From assembly GCA_023265025.1 (NCBI GenBank), contig JAHFUP010000024.1, positions 1 to 57,743 of the forward strand: 57,743 bases of DNA, read 5' to 3'. Of the stretch, positions 2-4,922 are shown one piece after another. Under the pieces are notes generated by a model. The model saw nothing but the letters and a program-made list of their open reading frames with translations. It was not told the DNA's origin and made no database searches. Each line of letters starts with the position of its first letter. Position 1 is the first letter of the stretch. The DNA comes from Acidimicrobiia bacterium. Lineage in GTDB: Bacteria; Actinomycetota; Acidimicrobiia; Acidimicrobiales; AC-14. A program made the position numbers and the translations under genes.

Positions 2-523
2 CCCGAGGTCAGCTTCGAGTGGAAGATCCCGAAGTGGTCCAACGCCATCGAGCGCAACCGGGCCCGCACCTACTTCCAGGCCTACGCGGCGGCGAGCGCC
101 ATGCACTTCGCCGAGAAGGCCCTGGCCGAGATCCGGGCCGGCCACACCAAGACGTGGGAGACCTTCGAGGTCCCCGACGAGGGTGTGGGTTGCGGGTTCA
201 CCGAGGCCGTCCGCGGCGTGCTCTCCCACCACATGGTCATCAAGGGCGGGAAGATCGCCAACTACCACCCGTACCCCCCGACGCCGTGGAACGCCAACCC
301 CCGCGACGTCTACGGGACCCCCGGCCCCTACGAGGACGCGGTGATGAACACCCCGATCTTCGAGGAGAACACCCGGGAGAACTTCAAGGGCATCGACATC
401 ATGCGGGCCGTCCGCAGCTTCGACCCGTGCCTGCCGTGCGGCGTGCACATGTACCTGGGCAAGGGCAAGGTGCTCCGCAAGGTGCACACCCCGACCTCGG
501 TGAACACGTCGCTGGAAGCGTGA
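2..523 (+). CDS. hhyL: [NiFe] hydrogenase (group 1h type) large subunit, C-terminal part
   Basis: Partial gene, open at the left edge; 173 residues are visible. It is the C-terminal end of the catalytic subunit of an uptake [NiFe] hydrogenase. The distal nickel-ligand motif DPCLPCGVHMY is present, giving the second pair of active-site cysteines; the first CxxC pair lies off the window. About 24 residues follow the His of this motif, the usual position of the peptide removed by a maturation protease, and such a protease is encoded downstream at 3746. The gene order after it (NifU-like, DUF5947, DUF6084, protease, DUF6893, HypC) is what is known from actinobacterial group 1h enzymes that oxidise trace H2. 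The group assignment rests on this context, since the small subunit is not visible. Confidence 0.93.
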   Translation, partial: PEVSFEWKIPKWSNAIERNRARTYFQAYAAASAMHFAEKALAEIRAGHTKTWETFEVPDEGVGCGFTEAVRGVLSHHMVIKGGKIANYHPYPPTPWNANPRDVYGTPGPYEDAVMNTPIFEENTRENFKGIDIMRAVRSFDPCLPCGVHMYLGKGKVLRKVHTPTSVNTSLEA

Positions 524-1077
524 CGCAGCCCGACCTGCAAGTAGTCGGCGAGCGTCTGGAGCGCCTCCTCGAGGAGCTCCGGATGCTCGAGCCGACCGCC
601 CGTCAGCGGGCGGAGGAGTGCATCCGGCTGGTGACCGACCTCTACGGGGCCGGCCTGTCCAACGTGCTCGAGATCGTTGTCGAGGAGGGTGACGCCGCCC
701 TCCTCGACAAGATCGTCTCCGACGGGCTGGTGGCCAACCTGCTCGTGCTCCACGGGCTCCACCCCTTCGACCTCCCGGCGCGCATCGACGCCGCCCTCGA
801 CCGTGTGCGGCCGTATCTGGCGTCGCACGGCGGCGACGTCGAGGTCCTCGGTGTCGACGAGGAAGCGGGCTCGGTCACCATCCGGCTGCTGGGCAGCTGT
901 GACGGCTGCCCGTCGTCCTCGATCACGCTGAAGATGGCCGTCGAAGACGCAATCCACGAGGGCGCGCCCGAGGTGGCCCACATCATCGTCGACGGCTGGG
1001 TCGAGCCCGAGCCGCCGGCCGAGCCCGTCGTGCCGCCGACGCCCGTGCAGCTACGGGCCAAGCCGGTACGCGTGTGA
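520..1077 (+). CDS. NifU-like C-terminal-domain protein of the hydrogenase operon
   Basis: 185 residues starting at a GTG that overlaps the large-subunit stop by 4 nt. The first half is helical and unassigned. Residues about 90-155 form a NifU C-terminal (Nfu) domain with the motif GSCDGCPSS (Cys127 and Cys130), the pair that binds a labile Fe-S cluster in Nfu scaffold proteins. The C-terminal 25 residues are Pro/Val-rich and probably flexible. In group 1h operons such a protein sits directly after the large subunit, so a role in delivering Fe-S clusters to the small subunit or in electron transfer is the likely job (inference). It is translationally coupled to both neighbours. Confidence 0.9.
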   Translation: MTQPDLQVVGERLERLLEELRMLEPTARQRAEECIRLVTDLYGAGLSNVLEIVVEEGDAALLDKIVSDGLVANLLVLHGLHPFDLPARIDAALDRVRPYLASHGGDVEVLGVDEEAGSVTIRLLGSCDGCPSSSITLKMAVEDAIHEGAPEVAHIIVDGWVEPEPPAEPVVPPTPVQLRAKPVRV

Positions 1078-1692: not shown

Positions 1693-2313
1693 ATGTCGGA
1701 TCTGGACTTCGAAGTCCTGGGCGTCACGCCCGACCCCTACGCCGCCGCGCCCACGCTGAACTTCAAGCTGAAGGTCGACGAGGTCACGGGCCAGCGTGTG
1801 CACTCGGTGGCGCTCCGCTGCCAGATCCGCATCGAGCCTCAGCGCCGGCTGTACTCGCCGGCGGAGGAGGAACGCCTGCTCGCCATCTTCGGCGAGACAC
1901 CCCGCTGGGGCGACACGCTCAAGCCGTTCCTCTGGACCCACGCCATGACCATGGTGGCCGGCTTCACGGACACCACCGAGGTCGAGCTGCCGGTGCCGTG
2001 CACGTACGACTTCGAAGTGGCGGCGGCCAAGTACCTGCACGCGCTCGACGACGGCGAGGTCCCCCTCGTGCTGCTGTTCAACGGCACGGTGTTCTCCGCC
2101 GCCGGCGTGGAACCGGTGCCGTGGCACAAGGAGTGCCACTTCAAGATGCCCGCCGCCGTATGGCGGCAGCTGATGGACCTGTACTTCCCCAACAGCGGGT
2201 GGGTGCGGCTCCGCCGGGAGACCCTCGACGACCTCGAGCGGTTCAAGGCCTCGCACGCGCTCGCCACGTGGGAGCAGGCCATCGAGGCCCTGCTGAAGGA
2301 GGCGGGGGAATGA
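1693..2313 (+). CDS. DUF6084 family hydrogenase-associated protein
   Basis: 206 residues, ATG start 4 nt after the DUF5947 stop. It is a soluble protein with a beta-rich N-terminal half and a conserved-looking stretch around VPCTYDFEVAAAKY and a Trp/His-containing VPWHKECHF segment, but no recognisable catalytic motif. It belongs to a family found almost only in group 1h hydrogenase loci, so it is probably an assembly or scaffold protein. Its stop overlaps the start of the next gene (ATGA), which implies coupled translation. Function is unknown. Confidence 0.83.
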   Translation: MSDLDFEVLGVTPDPYAAAPTLNFKLKVDEVTGQRVHSVALRCQIRIEPQRRLYSPAEEERLLAIFGETPRWGDTLKPFLWTHAMTMVAGFTDTTEVELPVPCTYDFEVAAAKYLHALDDGEVPLVLLFNGTVFSAAGVEPVPWHKECHFKMPAAVWRQLMDLYFPNSGWVRLRRETLDDLERFKASHALATWEQAIEALLKEAGE

Positions 2314-3695
2314 CGAACGTCTCGGCCAAGTCCAGCAGCGTGCGTTCGACCATCGCCGGCTTCGAGCGGGCCCGCAAGGTGGCCGAGGCCGTCCTCTACG
2401 AGGGCTACGTGCTGTACCCGTACCGGGCCTCGTCGGCCAAGAACCAGGTGCGCTGGCAGTTCGGCGTCGTCGCGCCCGTGGCCCACTGCGCGGTCGAGGC
2501 CGGCGAGCGCGGCATGATGCAGACCGAGGTGCTGGTCGAGGGCGCCCGCCCCGTCGTCGACCTCAAGCTCCGGTTCCTGCGGATCCAGACCCGGACCATC
2601 GAGGACGCGTCGGGCACGCCCGTCGCGTCGCTCGAGGTCGACGGCCACCGCTGGACCACCTGGGACGAAGCGGTCGAGGAGGAGCTCGACGTGGAGGCCC
2701 TCGGCCTCGGCGAGCGGGTCGTCGCCTTCGAGCTGGCGCCGATGCACGAGGTGGAAGAGTTCGGTGGCGCCGGCCGCGTCGTCCGCGAGCGCCAGGCCAT
2801 CTCGGCTGAGGTGCGGGTGACGGCGGAACGCCTCGACGGGCCCTACCCGCTGGTGAAGTTCCGCGTCGTGGTGGCCAACGTGACGCCGTGGGCCAAGGCG
2901 GGCGCGTCGCGCGGGGACGTGGTCCGTCGGTCGCTGACCGCGGTGCACACGCTCCTCGCCGTCCACCACGGGAACTTCCTGTCAATGATCGACTTCCCCG
3001 AGTTCGCCGCCGGCGCGGTGGCGTCGTGCGTGAACGAGGGCACGTGGCCGGTGCTCATCGGCGACGAGGGCGAGCGCAGCGTGATCCTGTCGTCACCGAT
3101 CACCCTGTACGACTATCCGGAGATCGCCCCCGAGAGCGACGGCGACATGTTCGACTCCACCGAGATCGACGAGATCCTCGCCCTGCGGGTGCTGACCCTC
3201 ACCGACGAGGAGAAGCACGAGGCCCGGGGCACCGACCCCAAGGCGGCCGCGATCATCGATCGAGTCGACGCCATGCCGCCGGAGCTGTTCGACAAGCTGC
3301 ACGGCGCCGTCCGGTACCTGCGCACCGTCACGACGCCCGGCGTCGCCGGCGTGGGCAGGGCGGACGCGCCGCCCGACCCGGCCGCTCCCGGGGAGACGCC
3401 CTGGTGGGACCCGGGCGTCGACGCGTCGGTCAACCCCTGGGAGGACACCGCCCTGGTGGGCACGGCGAGCGTCGGGCGGGGGGCCCACGTCCGGCTGCGG
3501 CCCACCGGGCGGGCCGACGCCCACGACATGTTCCTCGTCGGCAAGACGGCCACGGTGGAAGGGGTGTTCTTCGACGTCGACGGCGACACGCAGTTCGCGG
3601 TCACCCTCGACGAGGACCCCGGCACCGACATGGCCCGGGCCCACGGCCGGTATCTCTACTTCCGTCCCGACGAGCTCGAGTTCGTGTCGGCATGA
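2310..3695 (+). CDS. Conserved hydrogenase-operon protein of unknown function (461 aa)
   Basis: 461 residues, ATG overlapping the DUF6084 stop. No transmembrane segment, signal peptide or known motif is seen. The central part (about residues 150-270) has a long conserved-looking region containing VHHGNFLSMIDFPE. The C-terminal part, after a Pro-rich linker near residue 350-370, has a short all-beta module (GRGAHVRLRPTGRADAHD) that resembles a beta-barrel nucleotide- or metal-binding fold only loosely. It is embedded between hydrogenase genes with overlapping codons, so it most likely belongs to hydrogenase assembly or its quaternary structure. I do not recognise the family by name. Confidence 0.85.
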   Translation: MTNVSAKSSSVRSTIAGFERARKVAEAVLYEGYVLYPYRASSAKNQVRWQFGVVAPVAHCAVEAGERGMMQTEVLVEGARPVVDLKLRFLRIQTRTIEDASGTPVASLEVDGHRWTTWDEAVEEELDVEALGLGERVVAFELAPMHEVEEFGGAGRVVRERQAISAEVRVTAERLDGPYPLVKFRVVVANVTPWAKAGASRGDVVRRSLTAVHTLLAVHHGNFLSMIDFPEFAAGAVASCVNEGTWPVLIGDEGERSVILSSPITLYDYPEIAPESDGDMFDSTEIDEILALRVLTLTDEEKHEARGTDPKAAAIIDRVDAMPPELFDKLHGAVRYLRTVTTPGVAGVGRADAPPDPAAPGETPWWDPGVDASVNPWEDTALVGTASVGRGAHVRLRPTGRADAHDMFLVGKTATVEGVFFDVDGDTQFAVTLDEDPGTDMARAHGRYLYFRPDELEFVSA

Positions 3696-3745: not shown

Positions 3746-4255
3746 ATGAGCGTGGCACGGGTCTTCGTCGTCGGCGTCGGGAACATCTTCCTCGGCGACG
3801 ACGGTTTCGGCGTGGAGGTCGCGGCCCGCATGCGGTCGCGTCCCATCCCCGACGGGGTGCGGGTCGAGGACTTCGGCATCCGCGGCGTCCATCTGGCCTA
3901 CGAGCTGCTCGAGGGCTACGAACTGGTTGTCCTGGTCGACACCATCGACATGGGCGAGGCGCCGGGCACGATCGGCGTCATCGAGCCGGAGCCCGACACC
4001 GAAGGCGAGGTGGCGCCGGACGCCCACGACCTCGACCCGGTGTCGGTCATGGGGCTGCTCACCGACCTCGGTGGGTCGGTGGGCAGGATGCTGGTCGTCG
4101 GCTGTCAGCCGGCCGACCTGGGTGAGCAGATGGGCCTCTCGGCCCCGGTGGAGGCGGCGGTGGAGGAAGCCATCCGGGTGGTGGAGGAGCTAGTGCAGGA
4201 ACACATGTCTGAATACCTCGGGAAGGAGCCCCGAACATGGTCCGTCGTCTCGTGA
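3746..4255 (+). CDS. [NiFe] hydrogenase maturation endopeptidase (HyaD/HybD type)
   Basis: 169 residues from the ATG at 3746. The fold signature GVGNIFLGDDGFG at the N-terminus plus VDTIDMG and DAHDLDP give the three expected nickel ligands (Asp19 in place of the usual Glu, Asp65, His94). The enzyme removes the C-terminal tail of the large subunit after NiFe(CN)2CO insertion. An upstream ATG at 3692 overlaps the previous stop (ATGA) and would add 18 residues unlike the family; the ATG at 3746 follows a GGGGAA box and places the start where family members start, so I chose it. The 3' end overlaps the next microprotein gene by 19 nt. Confidence 0.92.
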   Translation: MSVARVFVVGVGNIFLGDDGFGVEVAARMRSRPIPDGVRVEDFGIRGVHLAYELLEGYELVVLVDTIDMGEAPGTIGVIEPEPDTEGEVAPDAHDLDPVSVMGLLTDLGGSVGRMLVVGCQPADLGEQMGLSAPVEAAVEEAIRVVEELVQEHMSEYLGKEPRTWSVVS

Positions 4256-4341
4256 CGTCGTTGTTTTTCGCTGCGGTGGCGGGGGTGGTCGTGAAGTCGC
4301 TTCCCGACCTCGCCCGGTACCTCAAGATGAGGGAGATGTAG
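4237..4341 (+). CDS. DUF6893-type single-span microprotein, copy 1 (34 aa)
   Basis: 34 residues beginning MVRRLVTS with a GGAAGGAG ribosome site at 4221-4228, starting inside the end of the protease gene. It has one hydrophobic helix (FFAAVAGVVV) followed by the motif KSLPDLARYLKMREM and the stop. The same motif ends the next gene, so the two are tandem paralogues. Small proteins of this kind (DUF6893) are known in actinobacterial hydrogenase loci. The pattern (short basic N-terminus, one span, amphipathic Arg-rich tail) suggests a membrane peptide that could tether or sense the hydrogenase complex; this is inference. Confidence 0.85.
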   Translation: MVRRLVTSLFFAAVAGVVVKSLPDLARYLKMREM

Positions 4342-4461
4342 ATGCGCACCTTGGGAATCGCAACCACAGTCGTCCTGGCCCTGGCCATCCTCGCCTTCCT
4401 GCTGGTCGTACTGACGTCGCTGCCAGACCTGGCGCGGTACCTCCGCCTCAGGAAGATGTAG
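4342..4461 (+). CDS. DUF6893-type single-span microprotein, copy 2 (39 aa)
   Basis: 39 residues whose ATG directly follows the TAG of copy 1, with a GAGGGAG ribosome site inside the end of that gene. Layout: MRTLGIATT, a 17-residue hydrophobic helix, then TSLPDLARYLRLRKM and stop. The SLPDLARYL core is identical to copy 1 while the helix sequence and N-terminus differ, which argues for selection on the tail rather than a recent exact duplication. HypC starts at the very next base after its stop. Probably a membrane-bound accessory peptide of the hydrogenase; function unknown. Confidence 0.85.
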   Translation: MRTLGIATTVVLALAILAFLLVVLTSLPDLARYLRLRKM

Positions 4462-4713
4462 GTGTGCCTCGGCATTCCCGGACGGGTGATCGCCCTGCGG
4501 GAAGACAACCCGCACCTCGCCTCGGTCGACATCCTCGGTGAGAAACAGACCATCAACATCGGCATGATCGAAGAGCCGCTGGAACCGGGCGACTACGTCC
4601 TGATCCACGTCGGCTTCGCCATGAACAAGATCGACGCCGCCGGCGCCCGCCAGGCGCTGGAGGGGTTGCAACTAATGGGAAACAACGACTCGGAGGTTGA
4701 CCAGTGGGTGTGA
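4462..4713 (+). CDS. hypC: HypC/HybG/HupF family hydrogenase maturation chaperone
   Basis: 83 residues, GTG start immediately after the preceding TAG. It begins MCLGIPGRV with the essential Cys2 of HypC and has the family's YVLIHVGFAMNKID segment. HypC works with HypD in the cytoplasm to assemble and carry the Fe(CN)2CO unit to the large subunit and to keep the large subunit open until nickel is inserted. Neither hypD nor hypA/B/E/F is in this window downstream, so the other Hyp factors must be encoded elsewhere. Its last 10 nt overlap the next gene. Confidence 0.95.
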   Translation: MCLGIPGRVIALREDNPHLASVDILGEKQTINIGMIEEPLEPGDYVLIHVGFAMNKIDAAGARQALEGLQLMGNNDSEVDQWV

Positions 4714-4922
4714 TGATCGGGTTCGCGATCGGCTACGTCTTCGGCACGCGGGCCGGCGCCGAGGCTTATGACGAGATGCGGTCCGCGCTGAAGACGATCA
4801 TCGGCTCCGGGGAGCTCAAGGAGCTCGCCGGCGGCGCGATCTCCGTGCTCAGCGACGTGCTGCGGCAGGGGACCGGTGCCATCGGTGATGGCGGCCAAGC
4901 CAAACTGCGCCGTATCGCCTGA
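4704..4922 (+). CDS. YtxH-like small membrane protein
   Basis: 72 residues from the GTG at 4704 (in-frame GTG 4710 and ATG 4713 are alternatives), overlapping the end of hypC. The N-terminus MIGFAIGYVFGTRAGAEAY matches the glycine-rich helix and RAG motif of actinobacterial YtxH-type proteins, followed by an amphipathic helix and a short tail. These proteins are small, membrane-associated and of unknown function. The overlap with hypC makes it the last gene of the hydrogenase transcript visible here. Confidence 0.75.
   Translation: MGVMIGFAIGYVFGTRAGAEAYDEMRSALKTIIGSGELKELAGGAISVLSDVLRQGTGAIGDGGQAKLRRIA

Follow-up and report, generated by a model that had tools for sequence, protein, structure and literature searches.

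Small membrane proteins have been described for relatives of the group 1h (Hhy) hydrogenases. Group 1l comes with HylTM1-5 and the gene clusters of group 1m encode two single-span proteins of 82-92 aa, all short predicted membrane proteins, and the part of this source that was available names no such small membrane protein for group 1h (PMC9561532). As far as the accessible portion of another paper goes, Hyd-1h has neither a transmembrane helix nor a signal peptide, yet is membrane-associated; membrane-bound Hhy is reported there for M. fumariolicum, M. smegmatis and Pyrinomonas, and the H2 affinity of the M. fumariolicum enzyme drops upon isolation (PMC7174314). In group 2a, HucM is a small operon-encoded protein that ties a high-affinity hydrogenase of the cytoplasm to menaquinone and the membrane; in the available part of its description it is 188 aa long and assembles into a tetrameric coiled-coil stalk, which contacts the membrane from outside (PMC10017518). 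The peptides reported here, A and B, are by curated cut-off members of Pfam family PF21833 (DUF6893), for which Pfam itself lists no function. CydX, a small accessory subunit of a respiratory complex, is like DUF6893 in having ~30-40 aa and one helix, however, it has a different partner and no demonstrated sequence relation. PetN has the same size and single helix, also with another partner; a profile search of solved structures gave two matches at E about 1, which is chance level, with PetN (E 1) among the profile matches, and a single-sequence search of solved structures returned no DUF6893 chain. The terms "DUF6893" and "PF21833" were not found in the papers searched, a set outside which preprints and most subscription papers lie; among the titles and abstracts listed for Hhy membrane anchors and small proteins, none describes DUF6893, and the accessible parts of two papers hold nothing on small hhy-operon genes (PMC4767420; PMC13098282).

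The stretch of DNA analyzed (the window, 57,743 nucleotides) is contig C116 of an Acidimicrobiia genome of 5.4 Mb in 185 contigs. The contig start falls inside hhyL, and all operon genes listed below lie on the forward strand:

2..523, + strand: hhyL, C-terminal 173 codons, group 1h large subunit (Pfam PF00374; HofG, 5aa5, best)
520..1077, + strand: hhyE-like NifU-domain protein, 185 aa (open reading frame; named from same-slot relatives, "NifU family protein", and from HhyE in the available part of PMC6883350)
1074..1688, + strand: DUF5947 protein (PF19372, 243.7 bits)
1693..2313, + strand: DUF6084-type protein (named from annotated same-slot relatives)
2310..3695, + strand: orf5, conserved operon protein, 461 aa ("hypothetical protein" in an annotated relative)
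3746..4255, + strand: HyaD-type hydrogenase maturation protease, 169 aa (PF01750, TIGR00072)
4223..4228, + strand: Shine-Dalgarno-like AAGGAG of A (sequence)
4237..4341, + strand: DUF6893 microprotein A, 34 aa, short class, RR N-terminus (PF21833, 40.5 bits)
4330..4335, + strand: Shine-Dalgarno-like AGGGAG of B, inside the last codons of A (sequence)
4342..4461, + strand: DUF6893 microprotein B, 39 aa, long class, MxxxG N-terminus (PF21833, 37.8 bits)
4450..4455, + strand: Shine-Dalgarno-like AGGAAG of hypC (sequence)
4462..4713, + strand: hypC (PF01455, TIGR00074)
4704..4922, + strand: small protein of 72 aa after hypC (no Pfam match over cut-off)

The order hhyL, hhyE, DUF5947, DUF6084, orf5, protease is that of a group 1h (Hhy) operon, and the Hhy operon of C. 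necator has the same order as far as the protease. Among solved hydrogenases the hhyL fragment is nearest to HofG, the C. necator group 1h enzyme (5aa5, E 1.3e-84; next E 7.8e-22), although this nearness is not enough to tell 1h from its sister groups, since the same genome encodes another large subunit that is also nearest to HofG. That second gene (contig C39, L196 2767-4644; 5aa5 E 3.5e-147) has no DUF6893 on the 9 kb read and may, as a guess, encode an enzyme of the group 1l or 1m type. The remaining part of hhyL, as well as hhyS, is probably on contig C160, judging from coverage of the HhyL profile (1-345 on C160, 370-508 in the window); the HhyS is free of a hydrophobic C-terminal anchor (C-terminal hydropathy 0.85), as expected for Hhy. 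The gene directly 5' of hhyL is labelled "hydrogenase expression protein HypE" in the records of L188 (8848-9903), L189, L191, L192 and L195; Pfam (PF14720) identifies the L188 gene, from C. necator, as a hydrogenase small subunit, to which the other four are related. Proteins similar to the 72-aa one occur near hypC in several relatives (L168, L169, L170, L179, L181, L182).

The initial annotation had described A and B as two adjacent peptides with a common tail, SLPDLARYL, each with its own ribosome site, and its frames, coordinates and lengths are exact. Both run from ATG to TAG behind a Shine-Dalgarno-like site, and both consist of a hydrophobic helix followed by a tail with RY and a terminal Met, as DUF6893 does. 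Their last 15 codons, stop included, are identical at 35 of 45 bases, with the base differences within SLPDLARYL all synonymous. The earlier statement that they bridge the protease and hypC genes without gaps holds for A-B and B-hypC (0 bp each); on the protease side there is an overlap of 19 bp. They had also been placed below the usual limit of gene calling. This was loosely put, since common gene callers apply a 90-nt minimum, which A (105 nt) and B (120 nt) exceed, yet five annotated plasmid Hhy operons list no gene in the peptide slot (the PLSDB gene table describes itself as incomplete). The Methylocystis parvus peptide in that slot has no match to PF21833. The matches of A (E 2.7e-10) and B (E 1.9e-9) to PF21833 exceed its 24.6-bit cut-off and span almost the whole model; the genome has no further match at E 0.01, and in NCBIfam A and B are without a match up to E 1. 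In comparison with congener G419, which has the same two open reading frames, A shows 5.5 nonsynonymous and 13.5 synonymous changes, over 73 and 26 sites respectively (pN/pS 0.14), and B shows 10 and 21, over 78 and 36 sites (pN/pS 0.22); against G433 the ratios are 0.6-0.9, distant pairs being near saturation and less clear. As far as sequence can tell, A and B are more than chance frames, because both exceed the PF21833 cut-off, 14 control genomes yield no match and five further genomes of the order carry the pair too. The ribosome sites and the selection on amino acids are indirect signs that both may be made as proteins.

The name DUF6893 and the association with group 1h, which the initial annotation had stated, are borne out across the phylum. 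PF21833 is found over cut-off in 35 of 396 genomes (a probable false match, G214, counted in) and in 0 of 14 controls, and DUF5947, a marker of Hhy operons, in 38 of the 396. DUF6893 is present in 29 of these 38 compared with 6 of the 358 others (Fisher p 3e-30). Of the six genomes with DUF6893 but without DUF5947, G216 and G290 have a DUF6084-orf5-protease-DUF6893 remnant close to a contig start, G150 and G195 keep the copy with most Hhy genes gone and look like decayed operons, and G269 shows DUF6893-hypC at a contig end. The G214 match lies inside a 795-aa frame without the tail and is probably false, and L081, a long peptidase-like frame, was rejected as a false match. Nine DUF5947-positive genomes have no DUF6893 over cut-off. 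In G264 the slot is occupied by a weak copy (L185), a divergent peptide of similar pattern is present in G128 and G171, and G103 and G317 stop before the slot; G100, G124, G182 and G369 have no DUF6893 in the stretches scanned, and no protease was found in G182 either.

The named Hhy loci are the best 80 matches to an HhyL alignment; they are nearly all from Mycobacteriales, since the first sequence of the query alignment is mycobacterial, and their counts are not independent. Exactly one copy lies between orf5 and the protease in 73 of these best 80, six others end before the slot, and in the last (L147, Mycobacterium palustre) the DUF6893 frame continues into the protease gene, through a natural frameshift or a sequence error. 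Outside the phylum, C. necator H16 pHG1 carries a DUF6893 peptide (38.9 bits), for which no described role was found in the literature searched; it is encoded in the 165 bp that separate the protease from hypF, an interval without a gene in the PLSDB table. Sampling beyond the phylum covered Pseudomonadota, through plasmids only. Overall, the DUF6893 microprotein is common in Hhy operons without being constant.

Several loci depart from this arrangement. G583 has an Hhy operon without a copy on the 16 kb read (L209) and an unlinked DUF6893 copy over cut-off elsewhere (L184), which is adjoined by a protein similar to the 72-aa one of the window. In G406 no copy was seen on the operon stretch read (L210, cut by the contig end), and an unlinked DUF6893-like peptide with a Leu end (L087) falls below cut-off. 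In these two genomes of one family it is as if the DUF6893 gene had moved. Streptomyces-type Hhy loci (L067, L177, L190) have another gene order, with a one-helix peptide after DUF5947 that carries RE[IVA]RIWRM plus an extension; the L190 peptide was scanned and gave no PF21833 match. The kinship of these three peptides and of the M. parvus one (L189) to DUF6893 is a likeness of pattern, with homology not proven. A third type, MKG...PDFQRYxQLRDM, stands divergently beside a HypC-like gene (named by eye) in L051 (2134-2250) and L052 (6545-6643), from G189 and G092.

By comparison with Pfam, what is new here is a division of the family into two classes and their pairing. Among 132 distinct peptides, 80 combine Gly5 with a length of 38 aa or more, 47 have neither feature and five are mixed; 79 of the 132 are 39 aa long (automatic starts are wrong in a few, and the class-B start of L054 was set by hand). 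The window has one of each, A of the short class and B of the long MxxxG class. The tandem pair is not private to the genome of the window. Six genomes have it, of which G000, G419, G461 and G616 belong to one family and G412 and G433 to two further families of the order. In these, A and B are 0-7 bp apart, and hypC follows B after 0-68 bp. A DUF6893 match at E <=0.001 is present in 14 genomes of a 248-genome sample of the order, and 5 of the 14 have the tandem. Within the window's own family (10 genomes searched), an Hhy-type protease (E 1e-41 or better) is present in six and the pair in four of these. The other two lack DUF6893: G608, a genome 70% complete, has an Hhy operon in which the protease is followed by hypA, and G546 has no DUF6893 in the whole genome, its contig stopping inside hhyL. 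Split pairs occur in two further genomes. In G140 the copies flank the protease, the first a 38-aa peptide of the mixed class and the second of class B, 268 bp before hypC, and in G205 a short-class copy sits in the hhy operon with a class-B copy (L054) 27 bp before hypC on another contig. Class B thus lies 5' of hypC, at 0-268 bp, in all eight genomes with a pair, and the combination of A and B recurs, with B accompanying hypC. The overall rule is a single copy, which in Mycobacteriales is class B, placed before the protease.

These observations bear on the earlier proposal that the peptides form a heteromeric anchor or a regulator. Two classes of differing length and N-terminus that co-occur in eight genomes would fit a heteromer; most loci have a single copy, and therefore a pair is not required. 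It is possible, though doubtful, that A or B is a redundant duplicate without a separate role. One copy suffices in most loci (73 of the best 80) and the tails of A and B are nearly identical, however, the lengths, N-termini and order of the two are kept in six genomes from three families, two more genomes have split pairs, and the pN/pS values against the congener are low for both A and B, even if distant comparisons near saturation reach 0.9. What had been observed about the two peptides was confirmed and is richer than was stated at the time, with its interpretation partly supported.

The initial annotation had proposed to look for loss of the tail in related hydrogenase loci; the tail was found there and is the most conserved part. 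The consensus of the C-terminal 14 residues is mostly [S/Q]-x-P-[D/E]-x-x-R-Y-x-[K/R]-x-R-x-Met, with the terminal Met in 131 of 134 distinct open reading frames and R-8 and Y-7 in 130/130 distinct peptides, a set that was filtered on the terminal Met and retrieved with an RY-containing profile. Among the matches listed, 68 sequences of 39 aa from the named loci have an overall dN/dS of 0.43, which is higher in residues 2-25 (0.61) and lower in residues 26-39 (0.21; pooled Nei-Gojobori counts with Jukes-Cantor correction, 1141 pairs with pS <=0.6), and M1, G5, P28, D29, R32, Y33, R37 and M39 are invariant in all 68 of these listed sequences. The tail is accordingly the most constrained part and the span is constrained mainly in character. 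In hydropathy maximum, B (3.01) and A (1.85) exceed the other operon proteins of the window (<=1.56, with HhyL partial), however, A is a weaker span than B, as inner segments of some HhyS reach 1.86. An AlphaFold model of B is one helix over residues 2-38 (mean pLDDT 92.3), longer than a membrane span; the model is silent on partners. The tail has a higher net charge than the N-terminus in 78/79 class-B peptides, whereas in the other 51 it is more positive in 24, equal in 18 and less positive in 9 (a few peptides in this set are of class B with the start misplaced). By the positive-inside rule the tail would be cytoplasmic, clearly for class B and ambiguously for the rest.

Our main reading is that DUF6893 crosses the membrane once and serves as a docking subunit at its cytoplasmic face, doubled here as A and B, to which we give a probability of roughly 0.42, lowered from 0.45 because of the weaker span and ambiguous charge of class A. 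The peptides would be tiny integral subunits of the Hhy system, with one helix crossing the membrane and the C-terminal 14 residues extending into the cytoplasm as a positively charged helix. The conserved tail may then act as the docking site that keeps a cytoplasmic component of Hhy at the membrane, close to the quinone, the enzyme itself being anchorless. In the genome of the window and parts of its order, the anchor would have been doubled into A (short, with a basic N-terminus) and B (long, with MxxxG), whose synthesis translational coupling may keep in step and which probably act together. The step from tail to enzyme is drawn from the fact that Hhy is cytoplasmic by sequence, has no hydrophobic C-terminus and is nonetheless reported on the membrane. 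No HhyS with a hydrophobic C-terminus was found in two sets of loci (0/34 and 0/78; 112 in all, one of the 34 being a remnant and some loci sharing a genome), and for this reason a comparison of HhyS tails between DUF6893-bearing and DUF6893-free loci was uninformative. A fuller version, in which DUF6893 is the missing membrane subunit of 1h hydrogenases, overlooked for its size, and A and B are a two-part anchor in one actinobacterial order, with echoes in other orders and B tied to hypC, the gene of a maturation chaperone, strikes us as rather unlikely.

Among described proteins, HylTM1-5 and the group 1m proteins are like A and B, by description, in being short predicted membrane proteins of related hydrogenases, however, the HylTM genes stand between the small- and large-subunit genes, unlike A and B, and the 1m proteins are about twice as long. 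HucM has a stalk of ~190 aa, a length that A (34 aa) and B (39 aa) do not reach, and DUF6893 peptides in general have 31-42 aa and one hydrophobic helix. DUF6893 may at most work like HucM and is not a member of its kind.

Several findings speak against an anchor. C. necator carries the peptide, yet its enzyme is soluble and of low affinity; the usual neighbors of the peptide are maturation genes and not hhySL; some Hhy operons are without it (G608, G546, G100, G124, G369, G182); and G150 and G195 retain a copy though most Hhy genes are gone. The best membrane data come from M. fumariolicum SolV, whose operon is said to hold two other membrane proteins. The chief rival to the anchor, though in our view an unlikely one, is a membrane-tethered assembly factor, a role in which the peptide would aid the maturation of Hhy by keeping the protease, the apo-enzyme or HypC at the membrane, without forming part of the finished enzyme. 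The peptide usually adjoins the protease gene and often hypC, class B keeps its place 5' of hypC in 8/8 genomes with a pair, including the separate-contig copy of G205, and the third-type copies of G189 and G092 adjoin the HypC-like gene. On the other hand, the divergent Streptomyces-type peptides, if they are homologs, follow DUF5947 with no adjoining protease. G195 and G150 have a protease and hyp genes with no Hhy operon, however, their operons look decayed (the HyaD start is missing and HhyS is in fragments) and so demonstrate no independent role for the peptide.

CydX accompanies cytochrome bd and serves as the model for a further account, in which the peptide would sit in a quinone-linked complex and tune it while Hhy runs. 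The size, the single predicted helix and the charged invariant tail are compatible with such a modulator of a respiratory partner, and the available part of PMC6883350 describes Hhy as feeding the respiratory chain, however, the linkage that was found is to hydrogenase genes, and we consider this account improbable. That the reading frames serve only as leader peptides, coupling or attenuating the translation of hypC or the protease, as the gapless A-B and B-hypC junctions and the ribosome site of B within A might suggest, is very improbable and was rejected, since the next gene varies (protease, hypC, hypF, hypA) at distances from 0 to >200 bp while the peptide stays, and selection acts on amino acids.

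According to the accessible part of PMC6883350, the hydrogen cycle has its main sink in soil bacteria that take up atmospheric H2; group 1h hydrogenases are one enzyme type behind this uptake. A conserved one-helix microprotein with a fixed slot in the operon is a concrete candidate for what may hold Hhy at the membrane, and one that is open to test in mycobacterial operons and in C. necator.
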